Of a stretch of DNA of 64,000 bases, positions 39,276-62,759 are shown in pieces (position 1 is the first letter of the stretch; every line of letters starts with the position of its first letter). This DNA is from Chitinispirillales bacterium (GTDB lineage: Bacteria; Fibrobacterota; Chitinivibrionia; Chitinivibrionales; Chitinispirillaceae): the NCBI GenBank assembly GCA_031254105.1, contig JAIRVB010000039.1, forward strand, positions 124,001-188,000, in the 5' to 3' direction. The position numbers and the translations under genes are program-made. The notes under the pieces were generated by a model that saw nothing but the letters and a program-made list of their open reading frames with translations, searched no databases and was not told the origin of the DNA.

Positions 39276-39580
39276 ATCCGGCGGCGTGTGAGAATTGATA
39301 TCAATTTTCTATTGCCCCCGTCTTGGCCCTTTGTTGAAATACGGGGCGGTGTGTTGGAAGGGCGTTGCTCGCAACGCCCGTACAGATTGTAAATAGGGGC
39401 AAGGGTTATTTCTGTGCATGGTTTTCAACCCCAGTGGGGTTGGAAAGATAGACCGGAGCAGTGTGTCCCTGCAGGGTGCCGGAGAGGAGTGGGACGAAGT
39501 GTGAAGTTCTAACGGACAATCTGAGATAAGTTAACCCGCCTCCTCCTGCTTTTGACTTTTGCTTTTAGAAAGATGCTATA
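39276..39580. other. Gap at the left border of the defence island
   Basis: Contains GGGCGTTGCTCGCAACGCCC plus GTACAG (39360-39385), a hairpin AACCCCAGTGGGGTT (39428-39442), and at 39540-39577 the first partial copy of the island repeat (GCCTCCTCCTGCTTTTGACT, then TTTGCTTTTAGAAAGATGC). No gene seen. Confidence 0.55.
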
Positions 39581-39835
39581 TCACTTTCTCAGTTTTAGTT
39601 CGTTCAACAGCAATTCGTATGTTTCAGCCCAATCTTTTTTGTAAAGTTCGGTTTCGATATCCGACAACTTATTAAGAGTTTCCGATTCAGAAAATAAATT
39701 TGTTGCTTTGTTTTCGTCAAGGTTAAAATCAACTATTAATTTTTTAATAACCGGTTCGGAAATCATTACTATGTCGTATGTCGGAGTATCGTCAATTCTG
39801 TCAATTGTTTGCAGTGAATTTATGTGCAAAAACAA
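39581..39835 (-). CDS. Unrecognised small protein in the DUF3990 operon
   Basis: An 84-codon frame beginning at TTG 39835, or 61 residues from ATG 39766. The conserved-looking part is VMISEPVIKKLIVDFNLDEN, followed by KLSDIETELYKKDWAETYEL, helical and acidic. It follows the DUF3990 gene (35-base overlap with the TTG start). A small third gene at this place is my recollection of similar operons. It could be the antitoxin. No helix-turn-helix is evident. Confidence 0.55.
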   Translation of the reverse strand: MFLHINSLQTIDRIDDTPTYDIVMISEPVIKKLIVDFNLDENKATNLFSESETLNKLSDIETELYKKDWAETYELLLNELKLRK

Positions 39836-40262
39836 ACTTGATGCGTTTCTTCGTGGTGTGTGAGCATTTCAGAAATTTTGCTTTTGCGAATTTCCCTTTC
39901 AGATAAAGCCGTAAAGTACTTTGGATTTTATCGTTGGCAACGGGCCCTATTACAATGTCATAATCGTGGGCAGGAAATTTACTGTTTTTATCTCTGTTTA
40001 TTACAACAAAATCAAGCCATTCTTCGTTGTAAGCATCAAAACGCTTAATTTTGCATATAGAATTTGTAAAATCATTTTCAGAGAATTCAAATTCACTTAC
40101 AAATCCGGCTGTTCCGTATTTTTCGCCAATGATTTTTGCCCATTCTTCTGCGTGATTACGAAATTTTGTTACATAAAAACCTTTGCCGAAATCCTTATTC
40201 GGTTTGCACTTTAACAAATCAATTGTGTCAACTTTAATATAACCGCCATGATAAACTTTCAT
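39801..40262 (-). CDS. DUF3990 protein, ADP-ribosyltransferase-like
   Basis: A 153-residue DUF3990 protein. It begins MKVYHGGYIKVDTIDLLKC with YHG, has DFGKGFYVTKFRNHAEEWA (the G-x-G-F-Y strand-helix) and EWLDFVVINRDKN, and ends DYDIVIGPVANDKIQSTL. These are the features that place the family in the ADP-ribosyltransferase-like fold, with YH and GFY in the NAD pocket, though a catalytic Glu is not obvious. Operon order DUF3791, DUF3990, small gene, with one-base and about 35-base overlaps. The set looks like a toxin-antitoxin module; activity and target are inferred. Confidence 0.8.
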   Translation of the reverse strand: MKVYHGGYIKVDTIDLLKCKPNKDFGKGFYVTKFRNHAEEWAKIIGEKYGTAGFVSEFEFSENDFTNSICKIKRFDAYNEEWLDFVVINRDKNSKFPAHDYDIVIGPVANDKIQSTLRLYLKGKFAKAKFLKCSHTTKKRIKFVFAHKFTANN

Positions 40263-40498
40263 TATCGCATTCCTCCATTTTTATAACAAATTTCGTAAAT
40301 GTCGTGAATAGCCCAAATGTCATTATCTGTATGTAAAGCCCACCAATGTTTGTTTATAAAATCCCAGCCGCCGTATTTTTTCAAATACTTAAAAGCAGCG
40401 GGAACCGGCATTTTGTAAGTTTCCGCGAATACAGGAATAATGAAACTGATAAAACTTATTTTATCGCTTGTCGCTTTATTTATTGTTTTTTCTTTCAT
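40262..40498 (-). CDS. DUF3791 protein
   Basis: A 78-residue DUF3791 protein (KISFISFIIPVFAETYKMPV, then AAFKYLKKYGGWDFINKHWW, HTDNDIWAIHDI). It regularly accompanies DUF3990 proteins. Its stop and the DUF3990 start share one base (TAATG), and a GGAGG in its last codons serves the next gene, so the two are co-translated. Likely antitoxin or chaperone of the DUF3990 protein (inferred). First gene of the module. Confidence 0.75.
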   Translation of the reverse strand: MKEKTINKATSDKISFISFIIPVFAETYKMPVPAAFKYLKKYGGWDFINKHWWALHTDNDIWAIHDIYEICYKNGGMR

Positions 40499-40698: not shown

Positions 40699-40757
40699 CT
40701 GTATGCCTATGGGGAGCAAGCGTTTTGTTTTCATAGTTATATAATTTACAATAATGC
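40699..40757. repeat. Duplicated 5' end of an AAA-ATPase gene
   Basis: 59 bases identical but for one position (40736) to 48979-49037, which covers the first 11-12 codons and the 5' flank of the truncated ATPase gene. Here it lies upstream of, and contains the start codon of, the gene at 40754. Confidence 0.85.
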
Positions 40758-41602
40758 AAGAGGATAAGGAGAGATTTTATATCAAGGTGACAAATGATTG
40801 GTATGTTTTTGAATTATGCAATTTGTTTCTATACCGCTATTCGCTAATTTTGATAGAATCCAAAAATTACATTTCAGACAATTTTCTCGTAAGGCAACTT
40901 TATTATCCATTCAGACTTTGGAATGGAAGAATAAATAAAAAGGTTCGATCTGTTTTTCTAACGTTCACTAATGGTATTTTTCATTTGCGGGAATATGAAT
41001 TTACAGATGTAAATCATTATAATTCTCTTCGATTAATAAAAAACAAAAAATATATAATTCATGAAGAAACGTTCAATCATGAAGTTTTATCTGAAATTAT
41101 AGATAAAACAAAAGTAGTTGAAGAACCGGAAAAAATACCTTTTCCACAAGCAGATAGTTTTGAAAGAGTTATTAATCTTTGCGAACTTTTAAATCAAAAA
41201 GATTTCTTGCCTAAAGAAGAAATTACTCAAAACTATGATTTTGACAGTAGGCAAACAGACTATTATTCCAATGCAGGAAAATATTTGGATTTGATTGAAA
41301 CAGGAAGAGACAGCGTTACTAATCAAATAGGTTGTTTTCTAACTTCTAAAGGGAAACAATTGTTCGGGTTAAATCTTGCGGATCGACAAAAAGAATTTGT
41401 AAAACTAATCGTATCTCACATCGCCTTTAAAGACACGTTGAAACTTTCTCTTGAAAATGGAGAACTTCCAACAAAGGAGGTGGTCGTTGAGATAATGAAG
41501 CGTTCGAAATTGGTTAACATGGATTCAGAAACAACATATAATAGAAGAGCTTCGACAATCACAGGTTGGATTAATTGGATTTTAAGCCAAATAGAAGAAT
41601 AA
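40754..41602 (+). CDS. Restriction-associated winged-helix protein
   Basis: A 282-residue AT-rich gene. The C-terminal part (about 130-282) reads IPFPQADSFERVINLCELLN, then FDSRQTDYYSNAGKYLDLIE and RRASTITGWINWILSQI, a winged-helix-type domain found at the end of type II restriction enzymes (DUF7226-like, from memory). The N-terminal part, LFLYRYSLILIESKNYISDN to HLREYEFTDVNHYNSL, resembles a DUF6997-like domain of the same proteins. No methylase partner is adjacent. The ATG lies in a copied piece of another gene, so the original N-terminus may have been replaced or lost. Confidence 0.55.
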   Translation: MQEDKERFYIKVTNDWYVFELCNLFLYRYSLILIESKNYISDNFLVRQLYYPFRLWNGRINKKVRSVFLTFTNGIFHLREYEFTDVNHYNSLRLIKNKKYIIHEETFNHEVLSEIIDKTKVVEEPEKIPFPQADSFERVINLCELLNQKDFLPKEEITQNYDFDSRQTDYYSNAGKYLDLIETGRDSVTNQIGCFLTSKGKQLFGLNLADRQKEFVKLIVSHIAFKDTLKLSLENGELPTKEVVVEIMKRSKLVNMDSETTYNRRASTITGWINWILSQIEE

Positions 41603-41744: not shown

Positions 41745-42000
41745 GTTACCTGTCCGCGGATAAAATGTTGGCTCGGAAAACTCTTGTTTTTGACTTTGAT
41801 GTTGATAGAACGATACTGTTTGTGCGGACGGGTACCGTCCGCGGATAGGGTGTTTGCTCGAACAATTCTTGCATTTGACTTTTGCTTTTGGAAAGATACA
41901 GTTGTTGCTGACAGGTTCCTACCTGTCAGCGGGTAAACTGTTTGCTCGACCACCTCTTGTTTTTGACTTTTACTGTTGATAGAACGATACTGCTTGCGCT
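41745..42000 (+). repeat. Island repeat array
   Basis: Three to four units of about 88 bases. Stems: GCGGACGGGTACCGTCCGC (41824-41842) and GCTGACAGGTTCCTACCTGT (41907 on). Unit tails read GTTTGCTCGACCACCTCTTG and linkers TTTTGACTTTTACTGTTGAT. Not coding, although spurious frames run through it. Confidence 0.85.
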
Positions 42001-42060
42001 GCAATATAAATTAAAAATCTCCCAATACGTTACTATTCTCAAAACCCCCGGTTTGTTATT

Positions 42061-42321
42061 TTATGGGTTTATTCCTTGGTAAAGTTTCCATAAATCAAAT
42101 TCCAAATCCCAATTCTTTCCCCAAACAAGATTATTTCGTTCTATTTTGAACTTTCGGAAGTTATTTAATTTCCTGTATTTATTATGTTGAGGGTGTGGAT
42201 GGTTATGCAAAAACTTAACGAAATCAATTTGACGAACAACATTGTCATCAAATTGCAACTCTACCCTGTAATCACCAAGCCACTTTGCGTGAATAAGTTT
42301 TATTATTTTTGTCGTATTCAT
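42061..42321 (-). CDS. DUF2442 protein
   Basis: An 86-residue DUF2442 protein: IKLIHAKWLGDYRVELQFDD, then VVRQIDFVKFL and FRKFKIERNNLVWGKNWDL. It overlaps the upstream DUF4160 gene by four bases (ATGA), typical of the DUF4160-DUF2442 pair frequently met in toxin-antitoxin-like settings. Role unknown; DUF2442 is the presumed antitoxin partner (inferred). Confidence 0.8.
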   Translation of the reverse strand: MNTTKIIKLIHAKWLGDYRVELQFDDNVVRQIDFVKFLHNHPHPQHNKYRKLNNFRKFKIERNNLVWGKNWDLEFDLWKLYQGINP

Positions 42322-42722
42322 TTTTTCCCTCTTTTTGCCTGTTTCCTGGATTTTGGATAAAAGCGTTCGTTTAGGTTCTGCATTTCGCCCAAAAATTTTT
42401 GCGTATCTACGGTAAGGTTTTCGAGTTTACGTATCGTTTCGGATTTAACGCTTTTCTGAAGCACAAAATATTCAAACCATTTTGTCACAATTTGCGCATA
42501 GTAAGCGTATATAAAAGCCTTTACAACACCCTGGTCTTTTTCGCTCATAGGTTTGTATCCAGCTTTATGTCTGACTTTAATATCAGCAAGTATCCCGTCT
42601 ATAATTATCAGGTCAAAAACATTTCGGTTATCATCTTCATCAGATACGTGAACATGAGGCGGCAGATGTTCATTAGACAAAAACGAAAAAATGAACTTTA
42701 AATATTTAAAAATCTGCGGCAT
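42318..42722 (-). CDS. DUF4160 protein
   Basis: A 134-residue protein whose N-terminal half is the DUF4160 region, FIFSFLSNEHLPPHVHVSDE with the conserved EHxPPHxHV, followed by a longer C-terminal extension (SEKDQGVVKAFIYAYYAQIV, then KRGKK). First gene of a two-gene operon. The His-rich PPHVHV suggests a metal or nucleic-acid site. Function unknown. A repeat array lies on each side of the pair. Confidence 0.78.
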   Translation of the reverse strand: MPQIFKYLKFIFSFLSNEHLPPHVHVSDEDDNRNVFDLIIIDGILADIKVRHKAGYKPMSEKDQGVVKAFIYAYYAQIVTKWFEYFVLQKSVKSETIRKLENLTVDTQKFLGEMQNLNERFYPKSRKQAKRGKK

Positions 42723-42810: not shown

Positions 42811-42941
42811 GCGGGTCATATGTTTGTTCGATAAACTCTTGTTTTTGATTTTTACTGTTGGATAGAACGATACTGATGGCGCGGACGGGCACCGTCCGCG
42901 GGTAAGATGTTTGCTCTACAGCCTCTTGCTTTTGATTTTTG
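42811..42941 (+). repeat. Island repeat array
   Basis: About one and a half units. Stem GCGGACGGGCACCGTCCGCG (42881-42900), followed by GGTAAGATGTTTGCTCTACA and CTTTTGATTTTT. Same orientation as the other arrays. Confidence 0.85.
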
Positions 42942-42956
42942 AACCCCGCAAACACT

Positions 42957-43365
42957 CTACTTGAAAATGTTGACGATTTTCAACTTATCATCTATCATCT
43001 GACTGTCGTGCATATCCTCGGAGAATACTTGCGCACAATCGTTTTCGGGAGCCGCAGACAGAATCAGACTATCCCAATAGCTGAAGCCGTATCGCTGCTT
43101 AACGGTATAAACTGATGTAACGGTTTGAAAACCAACGCTTTTAATTTCACAGAATGCAGCAATTTCGGTTTACAGCAGACACAATCCGTTCATGCTCCAC
43201 CTTGTTTTTTGACATGGCGTTATAGAACTCGTTCAAAACCTGGATGCTTACAACGAATGGTTCGGCGGTTTCGTCCAATAGCCTTTTCACTGTTTGAGTT
43301 TTCTCGCCGCTTTCGGTAAAAGCTTAAACAAGTACGTTGGTGCCGAGAAAGATTTTATCGTTCAT
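42957..43365 (-). pseudogene. VapC-type PIN toxin, inactivated
   Basis: PIN-domain gene broken twice. The start MNDKIFLGTNVLV is followed by an in-frame TAA where the family has Tyr, then AFTESGEKTQTVKRLLDETA, FVVSIQVLNEFYNAM and a frameshift near 43160, after which GFQTVTSVYTVKQRYGFSYW, DSLILSAA and QVFSEDMHD continue in another frame. The first catalytic Asp (D of DTNVLVY) is Gly here. It overlaps the antitoxin gene by 11 bases (ATG inside the antitoxin end), the classic VapBC arrangement. Confidence 0.88.
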
Positions 43366-43567
43366 TAAGCTCATCCCGACTGAAAAGTCTGAGATTGTCA
43401 ATTTTTACAGGAGTGATTATCTCAGAGGGACGTTTTCTTGCGGCGGCTGCCTGCTGTTCGCTTTGTGTATCCCGTTTAAAAACGTCAATATATGCAAGAT
43501 CCTTAAGCAGAGCCAGTACATGACTTGCTTTTGATTCGTCCTTAACTGAAATCGTGTATTGTGTCAT
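43355..43567 (-). CDS. VapB-like antitoxin
   Basis: About 70 residues from ATG 43567 (MTQYTISVKDESKASHVLAL), an intact frame ending SRDELNER. It looks like a Bacteroidota-type antitoxin paired with PIN toxins, with an N-terminal strand-helix part and a Lys/Arg/Ala-rich middle. Its stop overlaps the start of the dead VapC. It survives alone without toxin, so it is either a relic or a protective antitoxin against related toxins elsewhere. Confidence 0.65.
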   Translation of the reverse strand: MTQYTISVKDESKASHVLALLKDLAYIDVFKRDTQSEQQAAAARKRPSEIITPVKIDNLRLFSRDELNER

Positions 43568-43718
43568 AATAAACTCACACCTTGACTCCAATGGTACCAT
43601 CAAAATAGGTTCTCACGGACTTTATCATTAATATTACGCACATTGTGTGCCATAAATTAATACTCTTATTATAAATCTTTTAAAGAATGATAGCCACAGA
43701 AAACGGAAAATAACGTAC

Positions 43719-43839
43719 TTTTGAACGATACTGCTTGTGCGGACGGGCACCGTCCGCGGGTAGGGTGTTTGTTCGGATGATTCTTGCTTTTCGGGGGTGG
43801 CGGCGCACGAAGCAGCCGCCAGGGGGCCGAGTGCGGAGC
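43719..43839 (+). repeat. Island repeat unit plus a 47-bp GC-rich repeat
   Basis: Stem GCGGACGGGCACCGTCCGCG (from about 43739), unit tail to 43792, then at 43793-43839 a GC-rich 47-mer (starting GGGGGTGGCGGCGCACGAAG) that occurs again at 47842-47888 inside the truncated ATPase gene. The gap 43604-43959 contains no supported gene. Confidence 0.8.
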
Positions 43840-43959: not shown

Positions 43960-44802
43960 TTACTTCAGTTTCTTTTTTGTTTTTGCAGGCGGCAGAAAAT
44001 TTTCTTTTGTGATTACCGGTTTTCCTGTTTTTGCTTCTAATGCTTTACGGGCGTTTTTGGCTATTCGTCCGCCTTTTTTGCCGGCCTGGGCATTTTTTGT
44101 GAAGCCTTTTGCGCGTTCGCTTTGAGCTATTTGCCGGGTGGAGAGTTCCGCTAATGCTGTGAATATCAGTTCCGCTTCCGACATGTGGTCGCGCAGGTTT
44201 TGAGTTTTCAGGTTTTTTAATCCTTTGTGCTCTTTTACGGTTAATCCTGTCCATTCCTGATGAATGATATTTGTTAATGCGGCGAATTCGGTTTGTTCAT
44301 TGACGCCGGATTCTTTCCAATAGTCGGTCAATTTGTTACGGGTCTCCTGCCCGCTCATGCGCATTTGAATCCACTTTTCACTTCGTCCGAGACGAACCCA
44401 ATGTTCACGCGCGCGGTCTAGGCTCTGTTCGGGATCAATGGTTTCCTGAATCCGCTCATAGCCGACTTTTGCAAGCCATTGTTTGAAAGGCTCCGCTTTG
44501 GGCGAGGGAATGGATTGGATGATACGCAAAAGACTCTTTACATTTGCACAATCGGTACTGTATCTTTTTCCATCAGACGCAAGTAGTTTCAGTTGTCGAC
44601 AAAATGTCGACAACTCAATTCCGTCTTCAAGTTTTACCCGTTGTTTCATCCTGAACCAATAATCACGCGGATTGGCGCTGCCGGTTAAAACTTCAACGAC
44701 ATCCGTTACGGAGAAGTACCATTCTTCGGTTTGTTCGTCCCAATGTGTGCGGACTTTTCTGTTTTCAAATATTTTTACGGCTGTTTCCGCTTTTTTACTC
44801 AT
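43960..44802 (-). CDS. Bro-N family phage antirepressor-like protein
   Basis: About 280 residues from ATG 44802. N-terminal Bro-N domain: VRTHWDEQTEEWYFSVTDVV, then PRDYWFRMKQRVKLEDGIEL and STFCRQLKLLASDGKRYSTD. The central region has PKAEPFKQWLAKVGYERIQE and the C-terminal part, ending in a Lys-rich tail (KTGKPVITKENFLPPAKTKKK), resembles DinD-like antirepressors. Role: DNA-binding regulator derived from phage. The frame extends upstream to 44844 through a scrap of an ABC ATPase, so the ATG 44802 is preferred. Confidence 0.85.
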   Translation of the reverse strand: MSKKAETAVKIFENRKVRTHWDEQTEEWYFSVTDVVEVLTGSANPRDYWFRMKQRVKLEDGIELSTFCRQLKLLASDGKRYSTDCANVKSLLRIIQSIPSPKAEPFKQWLAKVGYERIQETIDPEQSLDRAREHWVRLGRSEKWIQMRMSGQETRNKLTDYWKESGVNEQTEFAALTNIIHQEWTGLTVKEHKGLKNLKTQNLRDHMSEAELIFTALAELSTRQIAQSERAKGFTKNAQAGKKGGRIAKNARKALEAKTGKPVITKENFLPPAKTKKKLK

Positions 44803-44950
44803 TATGCAAACCTTTTTTACCATTCTCCGCATCTGCCCCGGCAAGCGGCTTATCTAACAATATGAACTTAGGCGGATGCACAAGCGCATTCCAAAAAGTA
44901 AACAACTGTTTCTCTCCGCCGCTGAGATGAAAAGGCGTTTGTTTATGCAT
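44795..44950 (-). pseudogene. ABC-transporter ATPase scrap
   Basis: Fifty-one codons containing the ABC signature and the following Walker B: HLSGGEKQLFTFWNALVHPP and KFILLDKPLAG. Walker B has Lys where the catalytic Glu should be (LDEP becomes LDKP), and no Walker A or other ABC sequence adjoins. It is therefore a relic. It ends within the Bro-N gene's start region, which probably uses it as 5' sequence. Confidence 0.8.
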
Positions 44951-45340
44951 TAATCCTCACAGCATTTATTTGTAACCCACTTTTCATATTTAATAATATA
45001 ATATTTTTTGTTTATTAATGTTTTGCTAAAAAAATTATTTTGCGAATAGTTGTGATAAATTGCTACGCGCTACGCCAGCGGGGTTCTTGTTTTTGACTTT
45101 TGCTTTTAGAAAGATGCAGTTGATGTGGACAGATTCCTATTTGTCCGCGGGTAGGGTGTTTGCTCGACAGTCAATACAAAAGCCGCATGTTACGGGAGGT
45201 TTATTTTGAGGATTAATGATTTATTCGTAAAAGCTCCCCTTTATTAGAATGGTGTATACAAAACGGGGAAATGAAAATTTTGTAATAAAAAAGGTTGTAC
45301 AATAGGTACGCCCCAGTTAGGTGTTCGGCATTTAATATCC
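44951..45340. other. Gap with one island repeat
   Basis: About 390 bases, AT-rich, with an island repeat at 45083-45169 (stem around 45126: TGGACAGATTCCTATTTGTC). The rest shows no coding or RNA signal that I can support. Confidence 0.5.
45083..45169 (+). repeat. Island repeat unit
   Basis: One nearly full unit: TTCTTGTTTTTGACTTTTGC, AGAAAGATGCAGTTGATGTG, stem, then GGTAGGGTGTTTGCTCGACA. It stands between the Bro-N relic module and the ATPase-HEPN gene. Confidence 0.85.
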
Positions 45341-47347
45341 CTAAATAAAACCATTGACTATTTTTTCAATTCTTGACATATGAACCCTAAAAAAATCCAT
45401 TTCATCATTTGTGATTTCTTTGGCGTGAGCATCTGTCCTAAATTTATTAATTGTTTCTAATGCTACTTTTATTTCATCTTTATTACTGCCGAAAATGTTT
45501 TTGAAAACTTGGTTGTAATGTTTTGAAATTATTTTTGTCAAATCAGAAAAATAAACTTCCGTTTTCTTGGCATCAAATAAATCGTTATAATCAGAACCGA
45601 CTAATTTTGTTTTCCTTGGTTCTCCATAAATATCAACAACTTCTTTAAACGCATCTGGTTTTCCAAAATAAGCTTGCAATTGCATTCGCACTAATTGTCT
45701 CAACTTTGGTTCTACTTTATTTCTTCTTTCTGAAATTTCTTTCCATTTATCTTCTGTTGTATTGAGTTTTATTTTATACTTATTTTTGTTTTTTAGATAT
45801 TCCTTTATTGCTTCAATTTTGAAATAATAATTGCCATCATTTTCTTCGATTACATTATAACCTTTTAAATGAGCAATCAAATCGGGAGAAAGATTTGCTA
45901 AGTCATTAAACGTATCAAAATCTTCTACCGCAAGATAATTTAACATTTCGTATTCTTCGGGATAAAAACGAACAAGCACTTCTAATACCATTTCTAAGTA
46001 GCTGCTATATCTTTCGTTAAAAAGAGTTTTGGCTTTTGCATAATGAGTTTTATCAACACTTGCAGGTCTGTGTTTATTTGTTAATTCATTTGTAATACTA
46101 CATAAATGGCGAATAAGATATGGGTGTCCTCCATAATCGTCTCTTAATTTTCCAAATAATGTATCATCAAAATTTAGTCCCATATAACCGCCAAGTTTTG
46201 AAACCATTTCTGTTGTCTGTTCAACAGTAAAGCCTTGTATAAATTCAAAGGGAACATTATTGAAAATAGGATTTTCTGTATCATTAATTCTAGATGTTTC
46301 TATCGCTTTTGGATTGGTGCCAACAACCAAGAAAGAGAAAACAGCATTTTCTTCTCTTATAAATTTTTGAAATTTTGAGCGAACTGTTTGCCAAAACGAA
46401 ACAAAGTCCAAGTCTTCTTTCCAATAAACATTAGGAGAAGTTATTGGCGATATATTTTCTATTTCGTCAAAAATTATCAAAAATGGTTTATTGTCTGTTT
46501 TGGAATACAATCGTTTTAAATCTTTTTCAAATTTGGTACTTGCATTTTCTACGTCATATTCAGATTCTTCTGCAACTTTACACTGGATATTATTTTGCTT
46601 TTTTATCTCTGAGATAATGTAAAACAATGCTTTATGCCACCGCTTTTGATTAAATGCTGTATCTTGACAATCAATAACAACACTGGGCATCTTATCAACT
46701 TTCAAAGCTCTTACAATTCCGTTAATTACCGAAGTCTTACCTGTTTTTCGCAAACCAAATAATCCTGAATTTTCATTTGATTTGTGTCGGTTTATTATTT
46801 TGTGTATTAGTGAATTTCTTCCAAAAAAGAAAAAGTCTTTTGTAATAGGAGATTCAAATGCAAATAAATCTCTTTCAAAAAAGAAATTTCTGAATCTGTT
46901 TTTAATAAAGTCGTTATTGGTTGTTTCTAAAAAATCATTATAAGAAAACGGTATAATAACTCTTGACTCTGGATCTTTTTGTAGCAGAGAGGATATTTTA
47001 TCTTTTATATTTTTGTCTTGGCTAATTAATATACAACAAACATTTTCAAGTCTTTGATCTGGATAACGTTTATAGACTCGTTCAAATGCATCTAATGTTC
47101 TTGGCTCAAAATCTTTATATGGACTAAAGACAACAGCAATTTCTCTTTCAATATTAAACATTGTTTGAAAATCAACGCAAGGCTTTAATAAGAAATACCT
47201 GTAATTTGATTTTTCACTTAATTCTAAAGTTCCACCACCATTAGTAACATACCACTCGCTTGAAAGTCTCTGAATTATGAGCTTTTCTTCTTTTTCAAAG
47301 TGGCTAAGTTTTACACTCTGATTTATACCAGGAAATGTGTTTGCCAT
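45341..47347 (-). CDS. STAND-like ATPase with C-terminal HEPN-type domain
   Basis: A 668-residue AT-rich gene, alone between two repeat arrays. Segments: N-terminal region of unknown fold (1-160, VVFSPYKDFEPRTLDAFERV); P-loop ATPase of the archaeal/STAND type, Walker A GLFGLRKTGKTSVINGIVRA (about 198) and Walker B FLIIFDEIENISP (about 290); a helical region; and a C-terminal domain of about 130 residues with ETINKFRTDAHAKEITNDEM, in which Arg and His stand as in Swt1-like HEPN RNases. Architecture suggests an abortive-infection protein: ATPase sensing and RNase effector. A good promoter lies upstream. I do not recognise the exact defence family. Confidence 0.7.
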   Translation of the reverse strand: MANTFPGINQSVKLSHFEKEEKLIIQRLSSEWYVTNGGGTLELSEKSNYRYFLLKPCVDFQTMFNIEREIAVVFSPYKDFEPRTLDAFERVYKRYPDQRLENVCCILISQDKNIKDKISSLLQKDPESRVIIPFSYNDFLETTNNDFIKNRFRNFFFERDLFAFESPITKDFFFFGRNSLIHKIINRHKSNENSGLFGLRKTGKTSVINGIVRALKVDKMPSVVIDCQDTAFNQKRWHKALFYIISEIKKQNNIQCKVAEESEYDVENASTKFEKDLKRLYSKTDNKPFLIIFDEIENISPITSPNVYWKEDLDFVSFWQTVRSKFQKFIREENAVFSFLVVGTNPKAIETSRINDTENPIFNNVPFEFIQGFTVEQTTEMVSKLGGYMGLNFDDTLFGKLRDDYGGHPYLIRHLCSITNELTNKHRPASVDKTHYAKAKTLFNERYSSYLEMVLEVLVRFYPEEYEMLNYLAVEDFDTFNDLANLSPDLIAHLKGYNVIEENDGNYYFKIEAIKEYLKNKNKYKIKLNTTEDKWKEISERRNKVEPKLRQLVRMQLQAYFGKPDAFKEVVDIYGEPRKTKLVGSDYNDLFDAKKTEVYFSDLTKIISKHYNQVFKNIFGSNKDEIKVALETINKFRTDAHAKEITNDEMDFFRVHMSRIEKIVNGFI

Positions 47348-47502: not shown

Positions 47503-47700
47503 TGACGAACGCCTCTTGTTTTTGATTTTTACTGTTGATAGAACGATACTGCTTGCGCGGACGGGTACCGTCCGCGGATAGGGTGTTTGTTCGAACGATT
47601 CTTGCAGTTGATTTTTGTTGTTAGAAAGATGGTGCTGATGCTGACAGATTCCTATTTGTCAGCGGGTAAAACGCTTGTTCGATAAACTCTTGCTTTTGAT
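47503..47700 (+). repeat. Island repeat array
   Basis: About two units: one with stem GCGGACGGGTACCGTCCGCG (near 47558) and one with GCTGACAGATTCCTATTTGT (47640 on, closing with CAGC). The last part runs into the 3' end of the truncated ATPase frame. Confidence 0.85.
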
Positions 47701-49014: not shown

Positions 49015-49120
49015 ATTTATATAATTTACAATAATGCGAGGTGGGGAAGTTGATATTTTATGGTTCGCCGCTGTTCTTTTTGGTAAGAGGAATCAAAGCA
49101 GTTTATCTGAAAAAAGTTGG

Positions 49121-49231
49121 TGTGCTTGCTTGACCGCCTCTTGCTTTTGATTTTTGCTTTTGGAAAGATGCTGCTTGTGCGGACGGGTTCTTATTTGTCC
49201 GCGGGTAGGGTGTTTGTTCGAAAGATTCTCC
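49121..49231 (+). repeat. Island repeat unit
   Basis: One unit with the mixed stem GCGGACGGGTTCTTATTTGT and CCGC (49179-49202), between the truncated ATPase and the five-gene operon. The mixed stem joins the arm of one type to the loop of the other. Confidence 0.85.
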
Positions 49232-49839: not shown

Positions 49840-49843
49840 AGAA

Positions 49844-51086: not shown

Positions 51087-51128
51087 TACAATATCCTCAT
51101 GTTATAGAAAATAGTAATTTAAAACCAT

Positions 51129-54964: not shown

Positions 54965-55645
54965 AAAGCCTGTTTCACCGTTTCCAATTCAATTTCTTTG
55001 CCTGCAATACCTTCAAACAATTGTTTTTTATGTTCAAGAATCAAAAATATAACATTTTTTCTTAGAGTCAATACATTTGTCGTTTTTTGCGCCATATTTC
55101 ATCCAGCAAACGGGGTTCTTGTTTTTGACTTTTGCTTTTTTAGAGATGTTGTTGAAGCGGGCAGATTCCTACCTGTCAGCAGGTAAAACGCTTGCACGAC
55201 AAACTCTTGTTTTTGATTTTGATGTTGATAGAACTGACCGCTTGCGCGGACGGGCACCGTCCGCGGGTAAGGTGTTTGCTCGAACGATTCTTGTCGTTGA
55301 CTTTTGATTTTAGAAAAATGCTGTTAATGCGGTCAGATTCTTATCTGTCCGCGGGTAAAATGTCTGCTCGAACGACTCCTGCTTTTGACTTTTGCTTTTA
55401 GAGAGATACAGTTAATGCGGACAAATTCCTATCTGTCCGCGGGTAAGGTGTTTACTCGATCGCCTCTTGCTTTTGACTTTTATGGTTTTGTTTATTGAAC
55501 CGAAAGCAGATTCTCTGTATGCAGCTACAGCCCATTGTTTATATTTATACCATGAAAAACGAGTTCATTTTATACCGTCCTCACGAGCTTACTGAGCATA
55601 TTGAGGTGATAATATACGCAGGATTATAAATTTAAGGATTATTTT
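54965..55645. other. Gap dominated by an island repeat array
   Basis: About 680 bases with array 55112-55483 and AT-rich single-copy DNA on each side (54965-55111 and 55484-55645). No gene or promoter I can support, other than the -35-like TTGACT words that recur inside the repeats. Confidence 0.5.
55112..55483 (+). repeat. Island repeat array of about four units
   Basis: Stems: GCGGGCAGATTCCTACCTGT (about 55157), GCGGACGGGCACCGTCCGCG (about 55246), GCGGTCAGATTCTTATCTGT (about 55330) and GCGGACAAATTCCTATCTGT (about 55418). Linkers GCTTTTGACTTTTGC and tails GTGTTTGCTCGAACG. The first stem carries mismatches, the others are well paired. Confidence 0.85.
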
Positions 55646-56682
55646 ATGAACAACGACATTATCCATAATCAAGATTATAAAAATTGGTCAGAGTTCATTT
55701 TAAACAAGATAAAACTTGCCCATACAAATGCTGCGTTCAAGGTAAATGTTGAGATGTTAAACTTGTATTGGGAAATAGGAAACTCTATTATTGGCAGGCA
55801 AAAACAAAACGGTTGGGGCAGTAAGGTAATCGAATTTCTCGCAGCCGATTTAGCGAAAAATTTCCCGGAGAACACCGGGTTTTCTGTGCGTAATCTCAAA
55901 TATATGAGGGCTTTTGCAGAGGCTTATCCGCAGTTTCCAATTGTGCAGGCGCCGCTTGCACAATCAGAAAATCAATTCGTGCAAGTGCCGCTTGCGCAAA
56001 TAACATGGTATCACCATATCAGCCTGCTAACCAAAGTAAAAGATACCGCGGAGAGAGCGTTTTACATAGCCGAAACCGCTAAAAATGAGTGGAGCAGAGA
56101 TGTAATGCTTTTGCAGATACAAAGTAATCTATATGCAAGAAAAGGGAAAGCATTAAACAATTTTAAGAAACACTGCCTGAATACCAATCAGATTTGGCAA
56201 AAAGCATCTTCAAAGACCCATATCATTTTGATTTTTTAACGCTCTCCGATAAAATAAAGGAACTTGAAATTGAAAAGCTATTGATTCAAAAGATTACTGA
56301 CTTTTTGTTGGAGTTAGGAAAAGGATTTGCTTATGTCGGCAGGCAATATCCTATTGAAGTTGACAATACCGACTACAAAATAGACCTCCTGTTTTATCAC
56401 ACTATATTACATTCTTATGTTGTAATCGAACTCAAGGCCGGAGAGTTTTTACCAGAATACATTTCTAAACTTAACTTTTACATTAGCGCTGTTGACGATA
56501 AACTGAAAACACCTGCCGATGAACCTACAATCGGCCTATTGTTATGCGCTTCAAAAAGTAATGTAAAAGTTGAATATGCAATGCGCGGCTTATCTAAACC
56601 ATTAGGAGTTGCCTCTTATCAATTAGAACAATTAATGAGAGAAAATATTGAAAAACTTGAAGAATCGGGCAATGAAGAATAG
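55646..56682 (+). pseudogene. YhcG/DUF1016 nuclease, frameshifted
   Basis: Two overlapping frames of one gene. The first (from ATG 55646) gives NNDIIHNQDYKNWSEFILNK to LYARKGKALNNF; the second starts in a shifted frame with TLPEYQSDLAKSIFKDPYHF and includes TDYKIDLLFYHTILHSYVVI and ELKAGEFLPEYISKLNFYIS of the nuclease. One base appears to be missing near 56171 (after AATTTTAAGAA). Either a real frameshift, separating DNA-binding and nuclease halves, or an assembly error. The repeat arrays on both sides isolate it. It belongs to the same family as 53894-54964 but is well diverged from it. Confidence 0.85.
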
Positions 56683-57341
56683 TGAGAAAATAAAATCTGC
56701 ACCTGGATAAGGTGTTTGTTCGACTGCCTCTTGCATTTGACTTTTGATTACAGAAAGATACAGTTGATGCGGGTAAATTCTTATTTGTCCGCGGGTAATA
56801 CGCTTACTCGACCGGCTCTTGCTTTTGGCTTTTGATTTTTGAAAGATACAGTTGATGCGGTCAGATTCCTATCTGTCTGCGGGTAATGTGCTTGCTCGAC
56901 TGATTCTTGCCTTTGACTTTCGATTTTGGAAAGATACAATTGAAGCGGTCAGATTCTTATCTGTCCGCGGATAAGGTGTTTACTCGACTGATTCTTGACT
57001 GATTCTTGCTTTTGATTTTTACTGTTGGTAGAACGATGCTGTTTGCGCGGTCGGGCACCGTCCGCGGGTAATGTGCTTGCTCGACTGATTCTTGCTCTTG
57101 ACTTTTGCTTTTAGAAAGATACAGTTGATGCGGACAGGTCTTACCTGTCCGCGGGTAGGGTGCTTGCTCTACTGGCTCTTGCTTTTGATTTTTGTTTTAT
57201 GAGCGGCACTGAACTTAGGATAGTGTTTTTGCGAAAATAACGATGTTTAGATGGATATTTTACTATATTGTAGAACATGTGTGGAATGAGGATGTTGTGT
57301 GTATTTGGAAGTTAGCGGCAAAGGAACATTACTGATAATAT
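56683..57341. other. Gap dominated by the longest repeat array
   Basis: About 660 bases, of which 56705-57198 is repeat. The remaining 140 bases ahead of the ATPase gene are AT-rich and may hold its promoter (for example TACTATATTG around 57262), but I cannot assign boxes. Confidence 0.45.
56705..57198 (+). repeat. Longest island repeat array, about five and a half units
   Basis: Stems: GCGGGTAAATTCTTATTTGT (about 56778), GCGGTCAGATTCCTATCTGT (about 56856), GCGGTCAGATTCTTATCTGT (about 56945), GCGGTCGGGCACCGTCCGCG (about 57048) and GCGGACAGGTCTTACCTGTC (about 57131). One unit has an internal duplication of ACTGATTCTTG. Spacing between stems averages about 88 bases. Confidence 0.87.
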
Positions 57342-59951
57342 ATGAACACAACAAATAGTAATAGCGACTATTCGCAAGTAGAGTCTCTTGAAACTGCAAT
57401 TAAAGAATTTGCAGAGAAACTTCCCTATTGGGCAAAGTATCTTGCAAAGAAAATTTTGTCTGAAAATACTATTTCTGATAACGATATTGATAACTCATAT
57501 TCATATTTACTTGAAAATTTAAAACTAAAAGAAGAGACTCAAAAACCTGATATTTCAATTAACTGCAATTCTGCAAATACAACAAACTATAAATCTGATT
57601 TATTTCTTACCAAACTTGAAAATGTAGAAGGTGTAAACGCATTAGTAGAAAATCAAACAATAGAATTTAGTCCCAACCTGACTATCATTTATGGTGCAAA
57701 TGGCTCAGGAAAATCAGGATATGTTCGATTGTTAAAAAATGTGTTTTATTCTAAAGCTCCTGAAAAAATTTTACAAAATGTTCATATTGATAGTGGACAT
57801 AAATCTGTTAGTGCAAAATTTACTTTTAAATCAAATGATACAGAGATTCCGTTAAATAATGCGAATAAAGATAATGTGGAATTTAAACAGTTTGCTGTTT
57901 TCGATGGAAAAAGCGCTATAAGCCACCTTGAACAAAAAAATGAATTTGAATTTCGTCCAAGTGGATTGAATTTTTTTGCAAATTACACAAATGCGATTAA
58001 GCGAGTTGAAGATAAACTCAATGTTGATATTCAGGGTAAATCAACGCAAAATGATTTTTCTATTTTGTTTGATGGAGATTCTGAAATAAAAACTTTTGTT
58101 CAAAATCTAAATGCTCAGACAAAATTTGACGATATTAAAAGATATACTCCTTTTTCTGACGAGGATAAAACCAAAAAAGAAGATATTCAAAAAAAATCTG
58201 ATGACTTACGTTTGATTTTATCAAGGAAAAATGAGGAAATACTGAAACTTGAAAATATCAAAAAACTATTAACAGAAAACAAAACTGCAATAGAAAGACT
58301 TAATCAGATTTTCACAACAGAAGCTCTTGTAAGAGTTAAAGCAGCAATAAACGATTGCTTGACAAAAGAAGTCACTGCAAAAAATGAAGGTATTGAAAAC
58401 TTTAAAACAGATAAAATTCAAGGTATTGGAACTGTTGAATGGAAAAATTTTATTATATCTGCTGAAACATTTGCAAAAAAACAAAATATCAAAAATAATT
58501 TATATCTGCAAAAAGAAAACAACTGTTTGTTTTGCCTGCAACCACTTTCGGAAGATGCTGAAAAACTGATTGCCAACTATTGGATTTTCATAAAAAGTGT
58601 TGCGGAGCAAAATGCAAAAAAAGCACTGGAAACGCTTAATAATATTAAACAAAAATTTGAACAATTAAATTTTGATTTATTTCCCGCAAATAACACGCTT
58701 ACTACTTGGCTAACTGAAAAATATCCAAATGAATTAGAAACATTAAAACAAACACTATCTGAACAAAAAGCACTTGCTCAAAACATTATTTCTGATATTC
58801 AAAATAAAACAGTAAGTGAAAGAGTGGAGATAAAGATTGATATTGAACAACACACCATAATTGAAACGGCTATTGACGCTTCTATAAAGTCTCTCAAAGA
58901 AGATGAACAAAATAAAGAATTAGATAATCTATTGAAAACAAAGACATTTCTTGAACACAAAGAAAAATTCAATACGTATTTTTCAAAGTTTGAAATATAT
59001 GTCGATAATCAAGTTTGGATAAAAAAGGCAAAAAAAGCAGATTTTGCTAAACGCAAAATAACAGACACTGAAAAAAACTTATCAAACAAATTTTTTAATC
59101 AAAAATATATTGACAATTTTAATAGTGAGTGTAAAAAACTTAATGGAAGTTTTGGAATTGAAATCAATCACACAGGTTCGGCAGGAAAATCATACAGGCA
59201 ACTTAAATTAAAAGGAAATAGTCCCAATACCATATTGAGCGAGGGAGAGCAAAAAGTAATTGCTATTGCCGATTTTCTTGCCGAAATGCAATTGTCCGAA
59301 ATAAATAGAGGGTTTGTTTTTGACGACCCTGTTAATTCATTAGATAATGATCGAAAAAAACAAATTGCGCAAAGGTTGGCATCGCAAGCCACTGCAAAAC
59401 AAGTGATTGTTTTTACACATGATTTAGTTTTTGTATCAGATATATTAACTTATAGCGAAAATTCACAATTACCATTTTTATGCCATTGGATTGAAAATCG
59501 AAATAACAATCCTGGACAAATATGGTTAGAAAATGCACCTTGTTATGAAAAAAAATATCGAAACGCAGAACTTGTGAAAAAAATATACCTAGACTGCAAT
59601 AATAATTGTCCTCCAACGCAAAGAGAAATGTTATTAAAGCAGGGATTCGCAGCATTAAGAACTTGTTATGAAGTTTTAGTAATCAATGAATTATTTTGCA
59701 ATGTGGTACAGCGTTATAATGAACGAGTAAGCGTTGATTCTCTTTCAAAAGTAATTATTACTGATGAAATTAAGAACGAATTGGCTGATAGTTTTGCACA
59801 ATGTTGTAGATATATGGAGGGACATACACATAGTGATAAGTACGCATACCAACAACCGGAACCTATAAATCTCAACGAAGAAATTCTGAGATATGAATCA
59901 ATAAGGAAAATTATTAAAGATGCGAAAAAAACAATCAGTATCAATAAATAA
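57342..59951 (+). CDS. ABC-type (SMC-like) ATPase with HEPN-like C-terminus
   Basis: An 869-residue protein. Walker A GANGSGKS (118-125), a zinc-knuckle-like NNCLFCLQPLSEDAEKL (about 395), long coiled coils, ABC signature ILSEGEQKVIAIADFLAE (about 631) and Walker B RGFVFDDPVNSLD (about 658), then KQVIVFTHDLVFV. Residues about 750-869 are helical and hold CRYMEGHTHSDKYAY, where Arg and His fit a HEPN RNase motif. The layout resembles the RloC/PrrC anticodon nucleases. It directly precedes an AvaI/BsoBI-like restriction-modification pair with 13 bases to the nuclease gene. Its likely job: an RNase that acts when restriction fails (inferred). Confidence 0.75.
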   Translation: MNTTNSNSDYSQVESLETAIKEFAEKLPYWAKYLAKKILSENTISDNDIDNSYSYLLENLKLKEETQKPDISINCNSANTTNYKSDLFLTKLENVEGVNALVENQTIEFSPNLTIIYGANGSGKSGYVRLLKNVFYSKAPEKILQNVHIDSGHKSVSAKFTFKSNDTEIPLNNANKDNVEFKQFAVFDGKSAISHLEQKNEFEFRPSGLNFFANYTNAIKRVEDKLNVDIQGKSTQNDFSILFDGDSEIKTFVQNLNAQTKFDDIKRYTPFSDEDKTKKEDIQKKSDDLRLILSRKNEEILKLENIKKLLTENKTAIERLNQIFTTEALVRVKAAINDCLTKEVTAKNEGIENFKTDKIQGIGTVEWKNFIISAETFAKKQNIKNNLYLQKENNCLFCLQPLSEDAEKLIANYWIFIKSVAEQNAKKALETLNNIKQKFEQLNFDLFPANNTLTTWLTEKYPNELETLKQTLSEQKALAQNIISDIQNKTVSERVEIKIDIEQHTIIETAIDASIKSLKEDEQNKELDNLLKTKTFLEHKEKFNTYFSKFEIYVDNQVWIKKAKKADFAKRKITDTEKNLSNKFFNQKYIDNFNSECKKLNGSFGIEINHTGSAGKSYRQLKLKGNSPNTILSEGEQKVIAIADFLAEMQLSEINRGFVFDDPVNSLDNDRKKQIAQRLASQATAKQVIVFTHDLVFVSDILTYSENSQLPFLCHWIENRNNNPGQIWLENAPCYEKKYRNAELVKKIYLDCNNNCPPTQREMLLKQGFAALRTCYEVLVINELFCNVVQRYNERVSVDSLSKVIITDEIKNELADSFAQCCRYMEGHTHSDKYAYQQPEPINLNEEILRYESIRKIIKDAKKTISINK

Positions 59952-59964
59952 CGATAATGAGTTT

Positions 59965-60912
59965 ATGAAACATATTATCAAAACTTCCGAAGATTTAGTA
60001 ACCTCGAAAGAGCAAACGCGGGCAGGTTTCATTGCATTTGCATTAGAAAAAAACCGTCGTTCGACACCGATAATTGAAAATGCAAAATCGCTCAAAATCC
60101 TGGCTTCAAAAGCAAGAACAGCAACAGATCTGCTTAAAATAATTGAAATACGACCTGCACTTTTAACGGCCTCAGGATTATCCGATAAAGCTTTAAATCA
60201 TTTTACAGAAGAAGATAAAAATAACGCTATTTTGGGCTTGATTGAAAAGTTTCTTGAGCCGGCAGGCAAATACTTTGTTGATGAAGTTGTATATAGATAC
60301 CTGCTCATAAAAGGCGATTCGTTGGGCGGTTCTATGCGAAATATCGTTGGAGCTATTGCACATCAAAAATTTGTCAGGACGCTTTTGTCAAATCTTTCTA
60401 TTTCCGGCGCAGATTACCAATGGCTTAATAACAAAACTAAAAATTGGGAAAAAAAACCAGCTGATGACTTAGCTATTGAGGAGCAGCTGAAAGCTTTGTC
60501 GTGGATAAATTCCAAAAGAAAAATTCGCGTTTTAGCGTTTAATCTGAATATTCCTATTGTCAAAAACAATATTGATATTTGTCTTTTTAATGCTGATATT
60601 GAAACTTATAATAATGGCGCAATTGTAAATGCGCCCGAAAAAATTCTGATGTTGGGTGAACTCAAAGGCGGTATTGACCCTGCAGGTGCGGATGAACATT
60701 GGAAAACGGGAAATACCGCGCTTAATCGTATTAGAGAATCGTTTGGTCAAAATGGTTTGAAAATCGAAACATCTTTTATTGCGGCTGCCATTGAAAAGAA
60801 AATGGCAACTGAAATTTTTGTACAACTTCAAAATAAAACATTATCTAATGCCGCCAATTTGACTATTGATGAGCAAATTGTGAGTTATTGTGATTGGTTG
60901 CTAAAACTCTGA
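59965..60912 (+). CDS. AvaI/BsoBI-family type II restriction endonuclease
   Basis: About 315 residues from ATG 59965, the length of AvaI (315). Family sequence: SKEQTRAGFIAFALEKNRRS, RPALLTASGLSDKALNHFTE, KGDSLGGSMRNIVG and the catalytic part NNIDICLFN, then LMLGELKGGIDPAGADEHWK. Asp (about 204), Glu-x-Lys (about 232-234) and His (about 245) align with the BsoBI active site (Asp212, Glu240, Lys242, His253) at a constant offset of eight. The family recognises CYCGRG. The frame also opens at 59920, inside the ATPase gene, but that extension lacks family sequence. Confidence 0.88.
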   Translation: MKHIIKTSEDLVTSKEQTRAGFIAFALEKNRRSTPIIENAKSLKILASKARTATDLLKIIEIRPALLTASGLSDKALNHFTEEDKNNAILGLIEKFLEPAGKYFVDEVVYRYLLIKGDSLGGSMRNIVGAIAHQKFVRTLLSNLSISGADYQWLNNKTKNWEKKPADDLAIEEQLKALSWINSKRKIRVLAFNLNIPIVKNNIDICLFNADIETYNNGAIVNAPEKILMLGELKGGIDPAGADEHWKTGNTALNRIRESFGQNGLKIETSFIAAAIEKKMATEIFVQLQNKTLSNAANLTIDEQIVSYCDWLLKL

Positions 60913-60922
60913 ATGGTGAAAT

Positions 60923-62425
60923 ATGGAACAACTGAATTTATTTGACATACCAGTTAATGCTGATAAGTGGCAGGTACAAAATTTTTCGGCAGATAATTTT
61001 GGTGAGCAATCCGTCCGAATGAGTTTGGAGCGGAAACTTATTAATATAACCGTTGTGTCAGATATGTTTAATCGGCAAAATGTTAGTTATCAATTAAGTA
61101 AAAATGATACTTTGCACCGTTGGCTAAAATACAAAGAAGGATTTTCGGCAGACTTGGTCAAAAGGTTATTAAAAGAATTTAATATAAAGCAAGGTGATAC
61201 GGTTTTAGATCCTTTTGTCGGCTCAGGAACAACTTCTTTGGTCTGCAAAATGCAGGGTATAAACAGTATCGGCTTTGATATTCTACCTATGTCAAAAATT
61301 GCCATTAAAGCGAAGCAATCCGTTTTAGAATATGATTTGATAGAAATAAAACGAGTTATTTCGGAAATCAAAAATTTAGAAATACCTGAAAATTATAATA
61401 GTCGAACACCGCATATAACCATTACTGACGGCGCTTATTCCGAAAATACAGAAAAGGAGATTGCATTTTTTACTGAATGGAATAACGATAATGAATGTTC
61501 TGAAATAACAAAAAATCTTGTAACTCTCTGCATTTTAAACTCTTTGGAAAAAATAAGCTACACCGCTAAAGACGGGCAATTTTTGCGTTGGGATTACCGT
61601 AGTAAAAAAATGCTTGAATCTGCTGAACATCGAAAAAAAAATGGAAAATCGCCCTTGGTTATTCGTTTGGATAAAGGGGATCTTCCCGCTTTGAAACAAT
61701 CATTGTTAGATGAATTAAACAGTGTATCTATTGATATTTCTTTTATTCAGAAAAGCGCGACATCTAACACAGGTAAATTAAATTTTATTGAAGGCAGTGC
61801 GCTTTATGAATTGCCGAAACTCGAAAGTAATTTGTTAAACGCCGTGATCACTTCACCCCCTTATTGCAATCGGTATGATTACACAAGAACTTACGCTTTA
61901 GAATTAGCATATTTGGGTATTACAGATGAAAAAATAAAGAAGCTGCGTCAAGAATTATTATCCTGCACAGTGGAAAACAGACCCAAAATTGATTATATCA
62001 AAGAAAAATACATTGCATTATGCAAAGAAAAAGACTTTAATCAAATAATGAAAATTGTTGAGAACAACCAAACATTAGCTGAGATTAATCATTCTCTGAA
62101 TGAGCGAAGCAAGAATGGAGATATTAACAACAGAGGCGTTTTACGAATGGTTAACGGTTACTTTCAGGAATTGACTTTTATTTATGCCGAGCTGTTTCGT
62201 TTGTGTAAATCAGGGGCAAAAGTGGCTTTTGTGAATGACAATGTCCGTTATGGCGGTGAGGTTATTTCAGTAGATTTCATTTCTACGGAATTGGCGGAAA
62301 AAATCGGATTTAAACCTGTTAAAGTTTATTCTTTGAAACAGCAAAAAGGCAATAGCAGTCAACAAATGGCAAAATTTGGACGAGTACCCTTGAGAAAAAG
62401 TATAACTGTTTGGGAAAAACCATAA
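60923..62425 (+). CDS. DNA methyltransferase, cognate to the AvaI-like nuclease
   Basis: A 500-residue amino-methyltransferase. SAM motif VLDPFVGSGTTSLVCKMQGI (about 94), then a 200-residue spacer that probably holds target recognition, and catalytic motif VITSPPYCNRYDYTRTYALE (about 308). SPPY is usual for N4-cytosine methylation, matching M.AvaI and M.BsoBI, which are N4-cytosine enzymes, though N6-adenine cannot be excluded. It follows the nuclease by 10 bases. Together with the upstream ATPase-HEPN gene it forms a three-gene operon bounded by repeat arrays. Expected to protect CYCGRG sites. Confidence 0.87.
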   Translation: MEQLNLFDIPVNADKWQVQNFSADNFGEQSVRMSLERKLINITVVSDMFNRQNVSYQLSKNDTLHRWLKYKEGFSADLVKRLLKEFNIKQGDTVLDPFVGSGTTSLVCKMQGINSIGFDILPMSKIAIKAKQSVLEYDLIEIKRVISEIKNLEIPENYNSRTPHITITDGAYSENTEKEIAFFTEWNNDNECSEITKNLVTLCILNSLEKISYTAKDGQFLRWDYRSKKMLESAEHRKKNGKSPLVIRLDKGDLPALKQSLLDELNSVSIDISFIQKSATSNTGKLNFIEGSALYELPKLESNLLNAVITSPPYCNRYDYTRTYALELAYLGITDEKIKKLRQELLSCTVENRPKIDYIKEKYIALCKEKDFNQIMKIVENNQTLAEINHSLNERSKNGDINNRGVLRMVNGYFQELTFIYAELFRLCKSGAKVAFVNDNVRYGGEVISVDFISTELAEKIGFKPVKVYSLKQQKGNSSQQMAKFGRVPLRKSITVWEKP

Positions 62426-62759
62426 TATAAATATTAAGAAAGATGCAATTTAAGCGGGCAGGTTCTTACCTGTCCGCGAATAAAATGTTTACTCGGAGAA
62501 ATCTTGATTTTTACTGTTTACTGTTGATAGAACGATACTGCTTGCGCGGACGGGTACCGTCCGCGGGTAAAATGTTGGCTCGACCACCTTTTGTTTTTGA
62601 TTTTTTTTCGGGGTGCCCGAAGACTATGGGCTGAGGGCAGGGGGCGGTGTTTCACATGACTTTTCTAAGCGGCGCCCCCTCAGATATATAAAGGCTGATT
62701 TTGAACCGAATGACTCTGTCATTGAGTTTTGCAAGAAGTCTGATATATCCTTATTCATA
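62426..62759. other. Right border of the defence island
   Basis: An island repeat array at 62436-62608, then GC-rich DNA with GGGGCGGTG and TAAGCGGCGCCCCCTCAG, and about 60 bases before the larE stop. No gene seen. Base composition changes here from AT-rich back to the core. Confidence 0.5.
62436..62608 (+). repeat. Last island repeat array
   Basis: Stems GCGGGCAGGTTCTTACCTGT (about 62454) and GCGGACGGGTACCGTCCGCG (about 62546), tails TAAAATGTTTACTCG and TAAAATGTTGGCTCG. Same orientation as all others. Confidence 0.85.

Follow-up and report, generated by a model that had tools for sequence, protein, structure and literature searches.

It is still an open question by what route defence islands acquire and shed single modules when neither transposons nor integrases are at work, and it is raised here by a stretch of 64,000 nucleotides (nt) from a Chitinispirillales bacterium (contig JAIRVB010000039.1, positions 124,001 to 188,000). 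This whole stretch is called the window; it corresponds to C15:124001-188000 of the genome assembly G000, in which a repeat of ~88 nt separates restriction, toxin-antitoxin-like and ATPase genes. Because this marker stands at most module borders and points in one direction per island, the junctions can be read. In the explanation that we prefer, while leaning slightly towards doubt, the genome-specific, oriented intergenic arrays of the repeat are landing or exchange points for accessory modules in three islands; with the same not quite balanced confidence, it would cover restriction, toxin-antitoxin-like, orphan ATPase and some metabolic modules. The arrays cluster and keep one orientation per island, homology between modules ends at or near them, module orientation is independent of array orientation, and an operon is broken beside arrays.

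The repeat family and its distribution

The unit of ~88 nt consists of a T-rich part, CTCTTGCTTTTGACTTTTG, a hairpin core and the well-conserved GTTTGCTCGA. Two subtypes differ in the core, which is GCGGACGGGnACCGTCCGC in subtype A and GCGGACAGATTCCTATCTGTCCGC in subtype B; A/B hybrids are also present. An earlier note on this DNA had called the repeat palindromic, which applies to the core stem of ~20 nt and not to the entire unit. Detection in the window relied on a repeat search, TRF and nhmmer profiles of 14, later 17 copies, and profile edges are taken as array limits. The repeats form short head-to-tail arrays, ten of them from 39.5 to 62.6 kb plus a partial pair at 20.6 kb, all on the plus strand, with genes on both strands between them; the minus-strand rows all score below 5 bits with the 14-copy profile. 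nhmmer thus recovers the repeat at every place at which the earlier note had seen it, including the partial copy by the restriction cassette at 20.7 kb, and in the single orientation that it had reported. The best unit has an E-value of 6.2e-25 in the window (nhmmer) and of 3.5e-16 genome-wide (covariance model), both models having been made from these very copies. TRF reports an 88-nt period at 55259-55481 and 56720-57202, and no match in the window exceeds the Rfam gathering score. The arrays in the window are:

20603-20677, plus strand: partial repeat pair by the 20.7 kb cassette (nhmmer 24 bits for the better half; R1 46 bits at C15:144572-144652)
39543-39577, plus strand: partial B unit, left border of the island; the DUF3990 region begins at its right edge
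41746-42001, plus strand: partial unit, A, B, partial A (profile)
42811-42941, plus strand: partial unit, A, T-rich end (profile)
43719-43791, plus strand: single A unit (profile); an unrelated GC-rich repeat abuts at 43793
45084-45172, plus strand: single B unit (profile)
47506-47700, plus strand: A, B (profile); the minus-strand open reading frame (ORF) 47659-49014 ends inside
49119-49229, plus strand: single A/B hybrid unit (profile)
55116-55481, plus strand: B, A, B, B, T-rich end (TRF, profile)
56704-57211, plus strand: partial unit, B, B, B, A, B, T-rich end (TRF, profile)
62435-62605, plus strand: B, A (profile); its end lies 155 bp from the larE stop codon

The genome comprises 3.68 Mb in 56 contigs and was searched with a covariance model of 39 copies, matches being counted at an E-value of 0.1 or better. 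At least 55 matches were obtained, a lower bound because 150 of the 979 first-look candidates in this genome were scored (150 per genome in all 24 genomes). Thirty-nine of the 55 fall into three islands that total ~43 kb: C15:163-200 kb with 27 matches, all 27 on the plus strand, C43:2.9-7.5 kb with 8 of 8 on the minus strand and C10:13.7-16.3 kb with 4 of 4 on the minus strand. This bears out the expectation that copies cluster at accessory and defence genes. The other 16 lie outside the islands, and C1 carries both orientations; some single copies there adjoin a type III restriction gene, RhuM or ORF6N genes. In the ~1.0 Mb that was read, a sample drawn from contigs that carry the repeat, there are 38 arrays (39 rows, one array being split by a segment boundary), of which 22 stand in the three islands, none of the 22 inverted within its own island.

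A second family of the same genome served as a control: a ~130-nt repeat, AATGCAGAAATAATAATGC..., found at 60 places of the 1.0 Mb by self-comparison and single-linkage clustering. It is dispersed over contigs and occurs in both orientations within C15 (copies stand, for example, at C15:17500, C45:34466 and C54:81173, with a further one next to the C10 island at 16405), so that clusters of a single orientation are not the rule for all repeats of this genome. The even, two-way spread that would have spoken against a link to variable genes is thus what the control family resembles, and not what the ~88-nt repeat displays. The control family has no copy in C15:163-199 kb, where ~2 are expected, which is not significant alone.

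Among the genomes and collections searched, the repeat is found in this genome only. The search of relatives that the earlier note had proposed returned no match in 23 members of the family by blastn, covariance model or T-rich pattern; they comprise 22 genomes of another genus and one same-genus genome that is 88% complete (comparisons with the same-genus genome G023 are given separately below), and 13 of all 24 genomes are <90% complete or >5% contaminated. Viral contigs (two patterns) and plasmids and phages (search with one array) gave no match either, and for the five GTDB stretches that contain the exact 21-nt hairpin pattern the profile score does not exceed 7.3 bits. No description of the repeat appeared in a literature search made by feature rather than organism name and mostly through titles.

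Module borders and module direction

Twelve homologous pairs lie beside arrays and comprise more than the repeat alone. Module I, a pair of genes without Pfam or NCBIfam match in the proteins scanned, fills the gap between arrays at C22:67257-68099 and C43:5560-6402 (~70% identity). The arrays are on the minus strand at both loci, and relative to them the module points in opposite directions at the two. Under loose alignment scoring no more than 17 nt separate its ends from the profile edges; on the 5' side the loose alignment comes within 10 nt of the arrays, the strict one stopping 84-86 nt short, and at the 3' side the array edge overlaps the stop codon in C43 and the profile edge follows it by 13 nt in C22. 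The PIN module (C10:14650-15251 and C43:6559-7164, 60% identity) likewise has opposite directions relative to the arrays at its two loci, with its 3' end at most 13 nt from the array at both loci. Given identities of 60-70%, both modules are best read as independent arrivals.

Smaller pieces behave similarly. Part of the DUF3990 region, C15:163576-163709, is present a second time in inverted form at C15:198957-199090, where another array lies 25 nt away; the repeat stands in opposite relative orientations at the two copies of a nucleotidyltransferase gene (C10, C50) and likewise at those of a 90-nt flank (C38:46077, C54:79926). From the module pairs in opposite relative orientations it follows that array direction is a property of the island and module direction is free, and therefore that homologous recombination between arrays is not the sole process. 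Left and right edges of the 22 arrays in the three islands are scattered over many phases of the unit and so speak against cutting at one fixed position. Units resemble each other more within an island than elsewhere (AA similarity 0.872 versus 0.796, BB 0.774 versus 0.691, without a significance test), and among island units BB similarity within one array, 0.786, about equals that across arrays.

The broken operon is that of the lar genes. In the same-genus genome G023, larE, larB and larC are contiguous (L106:8223-12291); in G000, larE and larB (C15:193640-194386) are 6 kb apart with other genes and arrays between them, an array lying 155 bp behind the larE stop codon and another 160-210 bp, depending on the edge used, behind that of larB. 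larC had no match in G000, in one search that found larE and larB and in another that was run without a positive control. Since larB and larE are also arranged in another order than in G023, the change represents a rearrangement, and a simple insertion into the operon was dropped as an explanation. The G023 genes are themselves flanked by inverted 70-nt repeats (81%) of another sequence. The DNA behind truB likewise differs between genomes: G000 has the C43 island there, G023 a gene of 418 amino acids (aa), and G005, G007, G008 and G013 genes of 316-359 aa and ~690 aa; this comparison is one of gene sizes between different species, not strains, and the contig of G010 is too short for it. Elsewhere in G023, L105:9900-10020 at the end of contig C64 of that genome holds a 42-nt direct repeat with 37 nt between copies, perhaps the start of a CRISPR array.

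Gene content of the islands

The genes between the arrays of the window were named from Pfam and PADLOC (PADLOC, given 10 proteins, left 4 without a match), the gene calls in scripts being longest-ORF calls:

39581-40262, minus strand: DUF3990 module, ORFs 39581-39835 and 39801-40262 (PF13151 on 39801-40262, the one ORF scanned)
40754-41602, plus strand: DUF6997/DUF7226, type II restriction-enzyme-like (Pfam, PADLOC)
42061-42722, minus strand: DUF4160 protein 42318-42722 (Pfam) and adjacent ORF 42061-42321; the DUF4160 ORF alone was scanned
43355-43603, minus strand: 82-aa ORF without Pfam match in the scan
43960-44844, minus strand: Bro-N protein (Pfam)
45341-47347, minus strand: STAND/AAA-type ATPase (Pfam)
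47659-49014, minus strand: AAA-ATPase_like (PF09820), 3' end within an array (Pfam)
49291-54964, minus strand: HNH, two unmatched genes, MmeI-type IIG enzyme, DUF1016/YhcG nuclease (Pfam, PADLOC)
55646-56682, plus strand: second DUF1016/YhcG gene, two overlapping frames (ORF list, Pfam)
57342-62425, plus strand: AAA_13 ATPase (PADLOC PDC-S06), BsobI endonuclease, DNA methyltransferase (Pfam, PADLOC)
62760-63551, minus strand: larE (TIGR00268), C15:186760-187551

The earlier description of structured, oriented sites with unrelated modules on either side is supported. Several modules comprise more than one gene or are decayed: the DUF1016 gene is spread over two overlapping frames, and the DUF3990 region over more than one ORF. 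The C43 island, which ends 3' of truB, carries GmrSD, Schlafen/AlbA_2, DUF1016_N, PIN and KilA-N genes, and the C10 island nucleotidyltransferase and PIN genes. The designation of 39540-62608 as a defence island falls short in extent and content: the arrays continue past 62.6 kb to C15:199.3 kb, 11 kb beyond the window end, and also stand beside non-defence genes there. As they adjoin larB, a TPR protein and a serpin, the islands are accessory rather than purely defensive.

The GC content in 2-kb windows is 0.30-0.43 from 40 to 62 kb and mostly 0.41-0.53 before it. A second, GC-rich repeat, GGGGGTGGCGGCGCACGAAGCAGCCGCC..., is identical over 47 nt between 43793-43839, where it directly abuts the array 43719-43791, and 47842-47888; it also occurs at C15:188284. 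Upstream of the 40754 ORF, a 62-nt stretch (40699-40760) is 97% identical to 48979-49040, the start of the AAA-ATPase_like gene, and looks like the 5' remnant of a further gene of this type, possibly the trace of a lost module.

Competing explanations and known systems

The preferred explanation, in which modules land or are exchanged at pre-existing arrays, could operate in the following manner: An oriented tandem array would spread locally by unequal recombination. Incoming DNA may be captured inside the array in either direction, perhaps at hairpin-made breaks and by illegitimate joining, splitting the array into two halves that both keep its direction. Direct-repeat recombination of the RecA type between arrays could then delete, duplicate or replace modules, and a dedicated recombinase would not be required. 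We infer the order of these events and every step of the mechanism. To judge from the sequence, exchange of modules by homologous recombination between arrays, as the earlier note had proposed, is a plausible component.

Several observations weigh against this explanation. Exchange between direct repeats by RecA alone would leave the direction of a module with respect to the arrays unchanged, and the data are also compatible with a later arrival of the repeats than of the modules. The distance between homology and array on the 5' side of the PIN module is 189 nt in C10 and 99 nt in C43. At C10:13811-14039 versus C46:49206-49433, homology crosses the array edge in the same relative orientation, so the flank was copied along with the repeat; a tandem duplication of module I at C22:67170-69078 (939 nt, 79% identity) includes the adjoining repeat in the same relative orientation, and a truncated module I at C10 is oriented as in C22. 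Synteny with G023 on the left ends at ~36.5 kb, 3 kb before the first array, and hence not at a repeat, and some of the 16 matches outside the islands adjoin core-type genes (H+-pyrophosphatase, cation-transporting ATPase). Arrays were also aligned to a circular profile, and right edges compared with the next left edges. The 12 pairs of C15 match more closely than shuffled ones (p 0.0003-0.011 in six settings), which speaks for the explanation but is suggestive only, the pattern having been noticed by eye before testing; once the 7 pairs from C43 and C10 are included (19 pairs), one setting still gives p 0.0008, and the other five give 0.16-0.32. Finally, all of this evidence comes from the genome of one strain.

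A less probable yet serious alternative is a late arrival of the repeat: as a non-autonomous mobile element it would have inserted into permissive intergenic DNA, and head to tail into copies already there, once the modules were in place, its orientation reflecting the direction of replication, as in Y1 single-strand transposition. The repeat is indeed genome-specific, mostly intergenic and hairpin-bearing, with two subtypes, tandem copies and single copies elsewhere, and the flank shared by C38:46077 and C54:79926 bears it in either orientation. Replication polarity, first looked at by the skew of stretches and then by strand-balanced third-position skew, was resolved for 9 of 16 loci; six of the nine agree with the repeat orientation, but three disagree, C54 strongly, and C1 holds both orientations, so that replication as the cause of orientation is unproven. 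Late insertion also does not predict the phase fit of C15, and the mixed orientation of the other repeat family speaks against it. The ends of the repeat vary and its palindrome is internal, unlike the constant ends and terminal inverted repeats of a miniature inverted-repeat transposable element; no target-site duplication is apparent by eye in the printed array flanks, which were given no systematic test. As for the link to RAYT that the earlier note had suggested looking for, a REP/RAYT hairpin has a conserved GTAG/GGAG foot. Here, that motif precedes the stem in 4 of 39 units, the best repeat-profile score at the three loci with Y1 transposase matches is 2.7 bits, and the repeat match nearest to the Y1 gene of C53 is weak and 9 kb away. 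That gene adjoins a different tandem repeat, and an origin of the RAYT/REP kind is not supported. The C53 locus itself (L056, ~39.4 kb) has a 187-aa frame with the Y1 match, followed by tandem palindromic copies, seen by eye, of CAGCCCCGAAGGGGCG and GGGGCGTATTACGCCCC; frame and array are perhaps a RAYT-REP pair.

That the arrays are the sites of an integron-like, site-specific cassette system whose recombinase was lost or is novel seems very improbable to us, even if the sites resemble those of chromosomal integrons, as far as the portion of the source consulted describes them (PMC8618304), in being oriented, structured and genome-specific and in separating mostly small modules, several toxin-antitoxin-like ones among them. 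Against a cassette system, array edges are spread over many phases, many junctions hold several units, modules occur in either direction with respect to the site, and module sizes reach 5.7 kb (49291-54964); this suggestion of the earlier note is not supported. An integron site is framed by the attC boxes RYYYAAC and GTTRRRY. The pattern RYYYAAC...GTTRRRY occurs on either strand in none of the 39 rows (shuffles average 0.475), and the integron integrase model TIGR02249 has 9 partial matches in the genome, all under the 265-bit cut-off (best 92.2) and located on C13, C23, C45, C14 and C55, none on C15, C43 or C10. The integron was therefore rejected on boxes, integrase, edges and module orientations alike, and the doubt already voiced about a resemblance to attC was justified. 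Only slightly easier to credit is a cassette system without attC and without integron integrase, that is, islands forming a dedicated platform in which a novel host or mobile-element protein opens an oriented, satellite-like array, so that defence and toxin-antitoxin modules enter it in either orientation and accumulate; we grant both the platform and this description of it little weight.

We consider it equally doubtful that the repeats are functional non-coding units, either an oriented promoter plus hairpin or insulators, that are kept by selection and not linked to exchange. B units do have a promoter-like element, TTGACT-N16-TACA(G/A)T, at a constant place just before the hairpin (four copies: 55385-55412, 56737-56764, 56913-56940 and 57098-57125), and within 54.9-57.4 kb there are 16 promoter-like sites compared with 6.8 in shuffles, as well as 6 terminator-like sites compared with 2.2 expected in all, 3 of the 6 lying inside repeat units. 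On both strands, one A unit gives a better fold than its shuffles (z -3.55 and -3.29). For two B units, however, folding is weak (z -0.26 to -2.10), the main core stem is not among the terminator-like sites in that interval, the genes on the downstream side lie on both strands, and such a function does not predict clustering in variable islands.

If arrays are landing or exchange points and strains prove to swap modules inside them, the islands would make it possible to measure in a natural setting, outside Neisseria, how homology or breaks drive the turnover of defence genes, and accessory modules of this species could be sought by means of the repeat.

Among known systems, the repeat shares several features with REP/BIME elements associated with RAYT (Y1), which are short palindromic intergenic repeats confined to one genome and partly tandem; it differs in the rarity of the GTAG/GGAG foot and in the lack of a strong match at the three Y1 loci. 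BOX elements of Streptococcus pneumoniae are modular short repeats with internal tandem units, intergenic and dispersed. The likeness here lies in the modular, tandem, intergenic units, whereas the present repeat is concentrated and oriented in accessory islands. With chromosomal integrons, in so far as the part of PMC8618304 consulted allows a comparison, it has in common genome-specific, oriented, structured sites that separate mobile-looking small modules, and it departs from them in having no attC boxes, no integron integrase over the cut-off, variable junctions, many of them with several units, and free module orientation. In Neisseria, intergenic arrays of short repeats beside variable genes have been proposed to raise the exchange of adjacent genes, and in minimal mobile elements whole-gene cassettes are replaced via homologous recombination between conserved genes (both from the portion of PMC3898611 consulted). 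Intergenic repeat arrays beside variable genes, a feature of neisserial intergenic mosaic elements (NIME) and minimal mobile elements, are what we find here, and by analogy the nearest known kind appears to be the neisserial repeat array with minimal mobile elements. Compared with the neisserial arrays as given in that portion (their 20-bp dRS3 unit was not searched for), the arrays described here belong to one family, have a uniform orientation per island and place the repeat at most borders in a row; what is new is one oriented repeat family at most borders in three islands.

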